A DNA stretch of 23,092 nt, taken from positions 1 through 23,092 of the IMG/VR virus record IMGVR_UViG_3300027734_000327; one strand, 5' to 3'. Within the stretch, counting starts at the first letter, position 1, and every line of letters starts with the position of its first letter. The position numbers were made by a program, and so were the translations under genes. The notes below the pieces were generated by a model that saw only the letters and a list, made by a program, of their open reading frames with translations, did not search any database and was not told the DNA's origin. This stretch comes from a virus. This document shows, piece by piece, positions 18,219 to 22,654 of this stretch.

Positions 18219-18899
18219 ATGAATGTTAAACTTGTATCATACAGTCAGCCCACCGACGAATTTAGATCTAATGGTGTCGGAGACGCTCAGGAACTCATTG
18301 CGTATTGCGCCCGTGTCAGCAATCCCGCCAATCAGTACAACATGGAGACGGCAGACAAACTCATCAGATACTTGGTCAAACACCAACACTGGAGTCCTCT
18401 TGAAATGGTCTCAGCCTGTCTCGAAATTACTACAACTAGAGACATTGCCAGACAAATCTTGCGACACAGAAGTTTTAGTTTCCAAGAATTTTCTCAACGC
18501 TATGCTGACCCAACGAAAGATCTCAATTTCGTTACAAGAGAAGCAAGACTGCAAGACACTAGCAATAGACAAAACAGCGTCACCGTGGATGATCAATTGT
18601 TACAAAATGAATGGTACCGTGCTCAACAACGAGTTATCTATGCGGCCAAGCGAGAATACGAATGGGCTATCGCTAACGGTATAGCTAAAGAACAAGCCCG
18701 TGCTGTACTACCAGAAGGTCTTACAGAAAGTCGTTTATATATGAATGGTACACTTCGCAGTTGGGTACATTTTATTGAACTTCGTACAGGCAATGGAACA
18801 CAAAAAGAACACATGGAAATTGCTCGTGAATGTGCTTGTGCCATCCACGCAATATTTCCGATGGTGGAAGAATATGTCCAACCTATTGAAGGGTCGTGA
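18219..18899 (+). CDS. thyX: Flavin-dependent thymidylate synthase
   Basis: The 226-residue protein carries the ThyX signature RHRxxSx4SxR exactly: RHR at 82-84, Ser87, Ser92 and Arg94 (RHRSFSFQEFSQRY). Further family features are HWSPLEMV (57-64) and, near the C-terminus, a RSWVHFIELR block for dUMP/FAD binding. It makes dTMP from dUMP using methylene-tetrahydrofolate, FAD and NADPH, completing the dNTP supply started by the nrd genes. The ATG directly follows the previous stop. The last 26 bases overlap the DUF2452-like gene. T4 itself uses ThyA (td); ThyX is common in marine phages. Confidence 0.97.
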   Translation: MNVKLVSYSQPTDEFRSNGVGDAQELIAYCARVSNPANQYNMETADKLIRYLVKHQHWSPLEMVSACLEITTTRDIARQILRHRSFSFQEFSQRYADPTKDLNFVTREARLQDTSNRQNSVTVDDQLLQNEWYRAQQRVIYAAKREYEWAIANGIAKEQARAVLPEGLTESRLYMNGTLRSWVHFIELRTGNGTQKEHMEIARECACAIHAIFPMVEEYVQPIEGS

Positions 18900-20700: not shown

Positions 20701-20764
20701 ATAACATTATCCGTTAAGCGTACCTGCGTAGCAAGTTCAGATTAGTATCAGGCGAGGATAGATC

Positions 20765-20780
20765 TTGACGGGCTCGTCAA
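20765..20780 (+). promoter_or_regulatory. Palindrome over the tmRNA -35 box (possible operator)
   Basis: TTGACG-GGCT-CGTCAA is a perfect 6-bp inverted repeat that includes the whole -35 element, so a dimeric regulator binding it could control tmRNA transcription. Confidence 0.4.
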
Positions 20781-20793
20781 CTGATAGTATAAT
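20765..20793 (+). promoter_or_regulatory. Sigma70 promoter of the tmRNA gene
   Basis: TTGACG (20765-20770), a 17-nt spacer and a perfect TATAAT (20788-20793) give an excellent host-type promoter. Predicted initiation near 20800 is just ahead of the tmRNA acceptor piece. Confidence 0.88.
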
Positions 20794-20875
20794 GTAAGTT
20801 ATTGCTGTATGAAGCAAAGAGAAAAGTGTTCTGGACGCGGGTTCGACTCCCGCCAGGTCCACCAAAAGGATATTT

Positions 20876-21055
20876 ATGAAGTACACCGCATTGTGCCCAA
20901 ATTGTTTTATTAGATTTAGTTGGGTACCAGGCAAAGGGTTAACAAAACATAAGTGTTTTTCTGATGGGCCTGCCATGGTTTCGACAGGGCAACAAGTAAA
21001 TGAGTGGACAGCTCGGGAAAGCAGAACCCGTAGGATTGGGGTAACTCGGTCGTAG
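20876..21055 (+). CDS. Possible 59-aa zinc-finger-like ORF in the tmRNA precursor
   Basis: An ATG preceded 5 nt upstream by AAAAGGA starts 12 nt after the acceptor CCA. The frame crosses the intervening segment and enters the 5' half of the tmRNA, ending at a TAG before the tag. The first 32 residues look protein-like, with CPNC (7-10) and HKC (25-27), possible zinc ligands; the remainder is forced by tmRNA sequence. It may be a chance frame, a relic of an inserted small gene or a real peptide made from the precursor. It would conflict with tmRNA folding if translated. Confidence 0.25.
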   Translation: MKYTALCPNCFIRFSWVPGKGLTKHKCFSDGPAMVSTGQQVNEWTARESRTRRIGVTRS

Positions 21056-21072
21056 AAGCACAACACGTAAAC

Positions 21073-21105
21073 GCAAACGACGAACAGTTCGCATTGGCCG
21101 CCTAA
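21073..21105 (+). other. tmRNA proteolysis tag frame (ANDEQFALAA)
   Basis: The resume codon GCA and nine further sense codons encode ANDEQFALAA before TAA. The ALAA end is the usual ClpXP degradation signal. By recollection betaproteobacterial tags read very similarly (ANDERFALAA type), which hints at the host. Confidence 0.92.
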
Positions 21106-21147
21106 CAGCCGCCTAGGGTAGGAAATACCTCGTAACAGAAACTCCAG

Positions 21148-21173
21148 AAAGCACCTTCGGGTGCTTTTCTTTT
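21148..21173 (+). terminator. Rho-independent terminator of the tmRNA gene
   Basis: An 8-bp stem AAAGCACC/GGTGCTTT with a stable TTCG loop is followed by TTTTCTTTT; it lies about 40 nt after the tag stop codon. Confidence 0.9.
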
Positions 21174-21240
21174 GAATACTTGTAAACTTTCTGTTGGGCT
21201 ATGGCGTTATATATGTATATGCTAATAGGAGGCATTATGT

Positions 21241-22096: not shown

Positions 22097-22654
22097 ATGA
22101 AAACAGTTGGTGATAAATTAGAAAAATTCGCAGTCACTGGAGTTAAGCCAGGACAACCAGAAGATGCTTTCTTTGACATTACAGATGAGAGTTTTGCTGG
22201 TAAATGGAAAGTAATCGTTTACTACCCAAAGGACTTTACATTCGTTTGTCCTACAGAAATCGTAGCATACGATAAACTAGCAGGTGACTTTGCTGACCGT
22301 GATGCAGTATTGCTCACAGGTTCAACAGACAATGAGTTCTGCAAAGTAGCATGGCAGATGGCACACAGTGATTTGAAAAAAATTCGTCACACGCAGTTTG
22401 CCGACACACAGCGATGGAATGACGATACAATGGAAGATCTAAGCCTGATCAATCAGCTTGGTGTGTTCTATGCTCCAGCAGGTGCCGCACTTCGCGCAAC
22501 ATTCATTGTTGATCCAGAGAACGTTATCCAACATGTTACTGTCAACAATTTGAACGTGGGTCGTAGCCCAGAAGAAACACTTCGTGTACTCGACGCATTG
22601 CAAACTGGCGAGCTGTGTGCATGTAACCGTACAGTGGGCGGAGAAACACTATAA
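22097..22654 (+). CDS. ahpC: Peroxiredoxin AhpC (2-Cys, AhpD-linked type)
   Basis: AAGGAG lies about 6 nt before the ATG. The 185-residue protein has the peroxidatic site DFTFVCPTE (Cys51) and a C-terminal GELCACNR with Cys174 and Cys176. The double-Cys C-terminus is the form seen in mycobacterial AhpC, which is reduced by AhpD rather than AhpF, and ahpD follows here with a TAATG overlap. It reduces hydrogen peroxide, organic peroxides or peroxynitrite in the cytoplasm. This is a bacterial metabolic gene and rare in phages; a promoter and palindromes just upstream suggest its own control. Sequence is complete and no key residue is missing. Confidence 0.95.
   Translation: MKTVGDKLEKFAVTGVKPGQPEDAFFDITDESFAGKWKVIVYYPKDFTFVCPTEIVAYDKLAGDFADRDAVLLTGSTDNEFCKVAWQMAHSDLKKIRHTQFADTQRWNDDTMEDLSLINQLGVFYAPAGAALRATFIVDPENVIQHVTVNNLNVGRSPEETLRVLDALQTGELCACNRTVGGETL

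Follow-up and report, generated by a model that had tools for sequence, protein, structure and literature searches.

The locus studied here raises two questions: whether a phage genome encodes a tmRNA in two permuted pieces, and what the sequence lying between those pieces holds. The window, by which we mean the whole stretch of DNA analyzed, is the IMG/VR virus record IMGVR_UViG_3300027734_000327 (23,092 nt, positions 1 to 23,092, one strand), which comes from an uncultured freshwater phage. An earlier note on this DNA had proposed a circularly permuted, two-piece tmRNA gene and had suggested a covariance-model search as the check. ARAGORN called a permuted tmRNA at 20772–21196, and the search gave matches far above the gathering thresholds: Rfam model RF01850 (beta_tmRNA) aligned end to end with 20751–21170 (139.5 bits, E 5.7e-43; gathering threshold 84 bits), and RF04321 (tmRNA_permuted) matched 20803–21105 (119.7 bits; gathering threshold 47 bits). 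The 3’ half, with its T arm and CCA, comes before the 5’ half, the acceptor stem pairs across an intervening sequence (IVS), and the tag ANDEQFALAA has a ClpXP-type C terminus followed by a stop. The end-to-end matches of the two permuted models ruled out an ordinary standard tmRNA or a pseudogene. A chance match was rejected as well, since close relatives have the gene at the same place behind nrdA-nrdB-grx. We concluded that 20751–21170 is confirmed, on sequence grounds, as a permuted tmRNA of the beta type.

The details of the note held up to different degrees (Table 1). Its tag, its strong promoter and its 101-nt insert were all as described. The acceptor pairing had been called perfect; seven of seven positions do pair, but one pair is a G-U wobble (G3-U70), leaving six Watson-Crick pairs. 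The G3-U70 wobble is a known identity element for alanine. Together with the discriminator A73, it suggests that the window tmRNA would be charged with alanine and would serve trans-translation with SmpB. The terminator had been claimed without reserve; a hairpin with a U-rich tail is present, but we counted a single terminator-like hairpin in the region, no more than the one or so that chance would give. Neither the window nor 12 further loci matched a group I intron or any other Rfam intron family.

Table 1. Features of the permuted tmRNA gene and its conserved neighbors in the window.
Feature	Position	Strand	Basis
nrdA and nrdB, conserved phage neighbors	14145–17575	+	PF02867, PHROG 86
thyX, flavin-dependent thymidylate synthase, conserved neighbor upstream of the tmRNA	18219–18899	+	PF02511, 1.2e-42
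Sigma-70-type promoter for the precursor, TTGACG-17 nt-TATAAT	20765–20793	+	Consensus scan, 11/12 bases
tRNA-like 3’ half, encoded first	20800–20864	+	ARAGORN, Rfam
T arm GCGGG-TTCGACT-CCCGC	20837–20853	+	Sequence, covariance-model alignment
Acceptor stem 3’ strand CAGGTCC, U70 at 20858	20854–20860	+	7/7 pairs with 20966–20972
Discriminator A (A73)	20861	+	Sequence
Encoded CCA, end of 3’ half	20862–20864	+	Sequence
IVS, 101 nt, complementary ends extend the acceptor helix	20865–20965	+	Sequence, fold
AAAGGA, ribosome-binding-site-like, within the closing helix	20865–20870	+	Sequence, fold
IVS ORF, 59 codons and TAG, MKYTALCPNCFIRFSWVPGKGLTKHKCFSD then GPAMVSTGQQVNEWTARESRTRRIGVTRS	20876–21055	+	Frame open in 12/12 variants
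tRNA-like 5’ part and mRNA-like domain (5’ half)	20966–21145	+	ARAGORN, Rfam
Acceptor stem 5’ strand GGGCCTG, start of 5’ half	20966–20972	+	Pairs with 20854–20860
Tag frame ANDEQFALAA, stop TAA	21073–21105	+	ARAGORN
Terminator-like hairpin, U-rich tail	21147–21168	+	Scan; last hairpin of RF01850

The carrier had been taken to be a T4-like phage, and the neighborhood agreed: besides nrdA, nrdB and thyX, the window encodes a glutaredoxin, an endonuclease and a beta-helix protein, and its ThyX is 64% identical to that of the methylophage Melnitz. Origin from a bacterial chromosome, which by the note’s own account would have removed the phage aspect, was ruled out, the record being viral and its relatives phages. 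In IMG/VR, 21 of the 80 best relatives of the window’s nrdB had a permuted tmRNA in their stretch, and many of the other stretches stop before the site. Two genes of the window deserve further mention. Downstream of the tmRNA lies an AhpC/TSA peroxiredoxin gene (22097–22651; PF00578, 6.5e-19), a relative of which is present in 33 of 211 tmRNA-bearing loci, and a DNA/RNA non-specific endonuclease with an apparent signal peptide, here in a phage, is encoded at 1863–2678 (PF01223, 1.9e-37).

The insert had been taken as a spacer. We found instead that it opens with a motif resembling a ribosome-binding site, followed by an ATG, and that it is probably one of a class of inserts that code for protein. 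To describe this class we scanned for a T-arm/acceptor pattern and for a 5’-border pattern, which yielded 154 distinct permuted phage tmRNAs with IVSs of 4–273 nt; targeted scans raised the catalogue to 212, and one entry, whose IVS would measure 1956 nt, was regarded as falsely paired. The catalogue, built by sequence patterns of which one selects for ATG, held 88 coding IVSs; the 83 distinct proteins that they encode fall into roughly 35 families, and the largest cargo has 133 codons in an IVS of 415 nt (locus L498). The frequencies that follow come from other scans. In the least biased set, from the T-arm scan alone, a single ORF filled 18 of the 20 IVSs of at least 130 nt, and its stop lay at −1, −9, −12 or −13 relative to the 5’ half in 17. 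When both scans were combined, filling ORFs occurred in 22/26 IVSs of at least 130 nt (0.46 expected from dinucleotide shuffles), in 8/19 of 100–130 nt (1.2 expected) and in 13/47 of 80–100 nt (5.3 expected). IVSs of 60–80 nt showed no coding signal above chance (9/46 filled, 9.7 expected). Cargo is optional, the majority of phage IVSs being non-coding. We found no report of a coding IVS in a tmRNA in the open-access literature, and its use as a protein-coding slot across many related phages appears to be previously undescribed.

Coding IVSs shared a common anatomy. Directly after the CCA comes a purine-rich ribosome-binding site, typically TAAGGAAGTTT, and a Shine-Dalgarno-like motif was seen in 81 of the 88; the ATG follows 6–14 nt past the CCA (12 nt in 48 cases). 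About 30 families have a stop just before the 5’ half. The ORF ended in TGAT immediately before GGG in 50/88, TGA being the stop and T the final base of the IVS, and in another 14/88 the stop was placed 12–13 nt earlier than this border. Most non-coding IVSs and several bacterial ones share the TGAT end, suggesting that this border probably serves RNA processing, with some cargo making use of it as a stop. The two ends of an IVS can pair with each other: out of 10 positions, 9.4 do so in non-coding IVSs versus 7.2 when ends are swapped between genes, and 9.5 versus 8.7 in coding IVSs, the small gap in the latter arising because the consensus of the ends is itself conserved. Three precursors folded with one helix that runs from the acceptor stem into the IVS and encloses the ribosome-binding site, with z scores of −2.6 for the window, −4.5 for a locus with thioredoxin cargo and −3.8 for one with GNAT-like cargo. 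Covariance-model matches spanned the cargo in L161, L470, L498 and L515. Sequences resembling a tRNA T arm, e.g. AGTGGTTCGATTCCACT, were observed within the non-coding IVSs of L067, L150, L171, L131 and L083; these are perhaps remnants of inserted tRNA genes.

Besides a thioredoxin and a GNAT-like protein, the cargo includes about 30 unrelated small proteins; zinc-ribbon-like proteins and membrane peptides are also seen. The thioredoxin is 84 aa long and has the WCGPC active site (PF00085, 4.1e-21). In the GNAT-like family of 122 aa, dN/dS was 0.16 and 349 of 509 differences fell at codon position 3; other families gave dN/dS values of 0.056, 0.076, 0.13 and 0.33. Purifying selection was clear in the GNAT-like, MNIEQ, MKISEL and MILQ families, and the observed conservatism was never reached by shuffles of alignment columns in four cargo families. 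The MSRSS and MKIDI families had dN/dS near 1 on few differences, and coding status is not settled for every family, these two included. A single family merging MKYTALCP with MKLEKV was probably an artefact of shared 5’-half residues, and the two were counted separately for dN/dS and shuffles.

We call the 122-aa cargo GNAT-like from its predicted fold (pLDDT 68.9): nearly all of its top 50 PDB matches were acetyltransferases, none with E below 0.001, and a Pfam search returned no match. All 13 full-length copies at ≥93% identity sit between a CCA and a 5’ half, and no isolate with this cargo was found among 50,697 phage records. Its sole remote relative is a domain, 68% identical, within a phage protein of 961 aa (L568, 36–2921) in which GVAEG motifs recur and which looks like a polyprotein. 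As a separate observation, the cargo of L470, L482, L498 and L481 begins with MRI(T/N/K)E(I/L/V) or MKISEL, and ordinary window proteins at 2753, 6852 and 9479 start alike (MRYRELIES, MRINEVLST and MRLLEFSN). By analogy with T4, this common N terminus might be virion-targeting.

Cargo and tmRNA backbone were found in different combinations. The GNAT-like cargo stands behind three T loops (GGCAGTG, TGCGAAT and TTCGACT), with 5’ halves that differ to match. In one of its loci, L564, the 3’ and 5’ halves are of different acceptor types and leave a U-U mismatch, as would be expected of a recent recombinant. The window’s cargo likewise occurs behind TTCGACT, GGCAGTG and GGCAGTA T loops. The reverse is seen too: the 3’ halves of the window, L002, L007 and L043 are nearly identical, yet the IVSs that follow them are unrelated. 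These sequence comparisons mark the IVS as a probable cargo slot, with cargo and backbone reshuffled.

We then asked whether the window’s own IVS belongs among the coding ones. Its ORF begins within 20 nt of the CCA, behind AAAGGA, and fills the IVS; the first 30 codons lie in the IVS (20876–20965) and a further 29 run into the 5’ half, where the stop is found 90 nt inside. The start of the IVS family was matched by 27 related contigs. Among 12 distinct 101-nt variants, both other frames contained stops in every one, and dN/dS was 0.37 in the ORF’s frame versus 2.35 and 0.73 in the others. Three Cys are invariant, and a KGLT(K/R)HKCF stretch is kept apart from K/R changes. Column shuffles reached the observed score in 20/1000 cases and were stop-free in 42/1000, a modest signal for this family. 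These observations, together with the occurrence of the IVS in different backbones, argue against a reading in which the tmRNA alone is real here and the 101 nt are a structured non-coding spacer with a fortuitous ORF. That reading is doubtful but deserves serious weight, because shuffles of the window IVS alone produced a filling ORF in 199/2000 cases, the ORF has no stop within the IVS and runs on into the 5’ half, the helix ends fix part of the sequence, and many IVSs of 60–110 nt are non-coding, as are more than half of all IVSs in phage permuted tmRNAs. The case for the window’s ORF is therefore weaker than, and well below, that for coding IVSs as a class; all the same, the ORF is probably coding, its candidate product being a 30-codon zinc-ribbon-like peptide without a stop inside the IVS.

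The gene order, the pairing across the IVS, the cargo ORFs, the purifying selection on several families and the same cargo in different backbones were all observed, and from them we consider it quite probable that this is a phage permuted tmRNA gene whose IVS doubles as a small protein gene. By inference from known two-piece tmRNAs, one transcript would run from the 3’ half through the IVS to the 5’ half, and the halves would pair through the acceptor stem, a helix that the paired IVS ends would lengthen. The lengthened helix would present the mature ends to host enzymes, RNase P for the 5’ half and a 3’ endonuclease for the CCA. The product would be a two-piece tmRNA, charged with alanine, that carries out trans-translation together with the SmpB of the host. 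A small phage protein would also be translated from the precursor or from the IVS after its excision, and the anatomy suggests that the closing helix, which holds the ribosome-binding site, may damp translation initiation. The IVS would thus act as a cargo slot that unrelated proteins occupy in different phages.

A different account may be given of those IVSs that lack an internal stop, as in the window family, MKIDIT, MKLEKV, L476 and Melnitz, set against the 30 or so other families that have a stop at −1 or −12/−13. Such an IVS, once excised by the RNase P cut, would be a non-stop mRNA, and the ribosomes stalled on it would be rescued by the tmRNA from the same precursor. ArfA accumulates only when tmRNA is inactive. 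The cargo might behave in the same way: with tmRNA active it would be tagged and degraded, and it would build up only in the absence of tmRNA activity. Phage permuted tmRNAs would then be dual-function RNA/protein genes with an exchangeable cassette, whose non-stop subclass (the window, Melnitz) would serve as a sensor of trans-translation in infection. We judge both the loop and the sensor role to be improbable. The C-terminal parts past the IVS vary with the backbone in the window family, in keeping with the loop, but translation of the uncut precursor reaches stops in the 5’ half, and the ArfA comparison draws on general knowledge and on parts of one source (PMC10107115).

We consider it very unlikely that the two halves are separate RNA genes flanking an ordinary small gene, with no single precursor. 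Cargo of up to 133 codons (L498) is long for a spacer and would fit that arrangement; however, in the window a single promoter precedes the locus and a single terminator follows it, the two ends of the IVS can pair in coding and non-coding IVSs alike, and the spacing between the stop and the 5’ half is fixed.

A permuted tmRNA in a T4-like genome had been called unusual, which is only partly right. A two-piece ssrA close to thyX was described for Melnitz in 2022, and of 133 unique phage tmRNAs, 53 had been called two-piece, 50 of the 53 aquatic (PMC9004378). Permuted tmRNA in phages is thus previously known and the window adds another member; what appears to be new is the protein-coding IVS. 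We found permuted tmRNAs also in phage isolates on Stenotrophomonas, Xanthomonas, Alcaligenes, Acinetobacter, Erythrobacter and Pelagibacter; those in Stenotrophomonas, Xanthomonas, Alcaligenes and Acinetobacter phages (L463–L466, L580, L581) are partly unannotated in their records. Several hosts of phages that carry permuted forms have a one-piece tmRNA themselves. The earlier note had entertained a host with permuted ssrA as one source. Recent capture of a host ssrA with no phage-specific feature is most improbable: the best-fitting Rfam model is the beta one, and some beta bacteria (L410, L413, L414) share the TGAT border and the closing helix in their IVSs, but the nearest bacterial sequences align with the window tmRNA only over the T arm/acceptor and tag region, beta bacterial IVSs measure 3–42 nt, and there are hundreds (at least 200) of diverged phage copies with odd tags. 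Because the nearest bacterial matches are so limited, we regard the window tmRNA as belonging to an old phage lineage.

The tags and ends of these genes varied in ways worth recording. Many phage permuted tmRNAs (L094, L124, L092, L131, L161, L112 and others) encode tags of 25–31 aa, e.g. ANADTFDFSAMSFTGNTVRGAANESRFALAA, versus the usual 10 aa, and several of the long tags have a common DTFDFSAMSFTGN core. Other tags depart from the LAA degron at their ends (ANDSQFRMVA, ANDEAFLMAA, ANDELYSIAA, ATAPKAMAAHA and ANDNIVSAPMKAMGAAAGR; L043, L041, L045, L059, L116, L138, L162, L113), possibly changing host proteolysis. Three phage loci (L041, L042, L065) and the beta bacteria L405–L407 have a hairpin IVS of 23–24 nt and encode CCU in place of CCA, so that CCA would need to be added after trimming.

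Until now the segment between the halves of permuted tmRNAs has been regarded as waste. If the IVS is a coding slot in many phages, gene finders that mask RNA genes have been overlooking small phage proteins by the dozen, including a thioredoxin and a GNAT-like enzyme, and tmRNA maturation would compete with translation of a phage protein on one transcript. Permutation itself may then bring a benefit by opening up a site that can take in a gene while leaving the mature RNA unharmed. The cultured phage Melnitz, with an ORF filling its IVS, makes the idea testable now.

Compared with the bacterial beta-type permuted tmRNA (RF01850; RF04321), the window has the same gene order, acceptor, T arm, tag frame and terminal hairpin, but its IVS is 101 nt long and holds an ORF, whereas IVSs in the permuted beta bacteria examined span 3–42 nt. 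In 115 alphaproteobacterial genomes, most matches span about 290–460 nt; among some 20 readable alpha loci, the three IVSs above 100 nt (115, 232 and 333 nt) had no filling ORF. The notion that bacteria carry cargo as well was not borne out by these beta and alpha IVSs, and in this limited bacterial sample, where IVSs are shorter or non-coding, coding IVSs look like a phage feature.

The two-piece ssrA of Melnitz resembles the window’s in being phage-encoded, permuted, near thyX and with an ORF-filled IVS, but it is of the alpha type (T loop GGCAGTA, tag ANDNYVPVDYALAA), whereas the window’s is beta-type. Its IVS of 142 nt holds the ORF MFKWLSKTRLVVITRDYFRERNRKADAKIPKYLSGTRSVYD, preceded by GGAGAAG, in a frame that continues into the 5’ half; shuffles of the IVS gave a filling ORF in 26/2000 cases. 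The record annotates only the tmRNA at this site, and the ssrA section of the Melnitz paper makes no mention of a coding IVS (PMC9004378).

The passages considered here of a 2025 tmRNA survey (PMC11915505) contain no protein-coding IVS, and they describe three arrangements that may be set beside ours. One IVS has a repetitive element. Some tmRNAs carry a group I intron with a possible gene for a LAGLIDADG homing endonuclease; as in coding-IVS tmRNAs, a protein-coding segment is removed from a tmRNA precursor, but the intron is self-splicing and sits in the T loop, whereas the phage IVS lies outside the mature halves and matches no Rfam intron. Lastly, one nominally archaeal permuted tmRNA has an intact tRNA-Ala gene in its IVS, likewise a functional cargo, but an RNA and a single case, whereas the cargo of the phage slot is protein.
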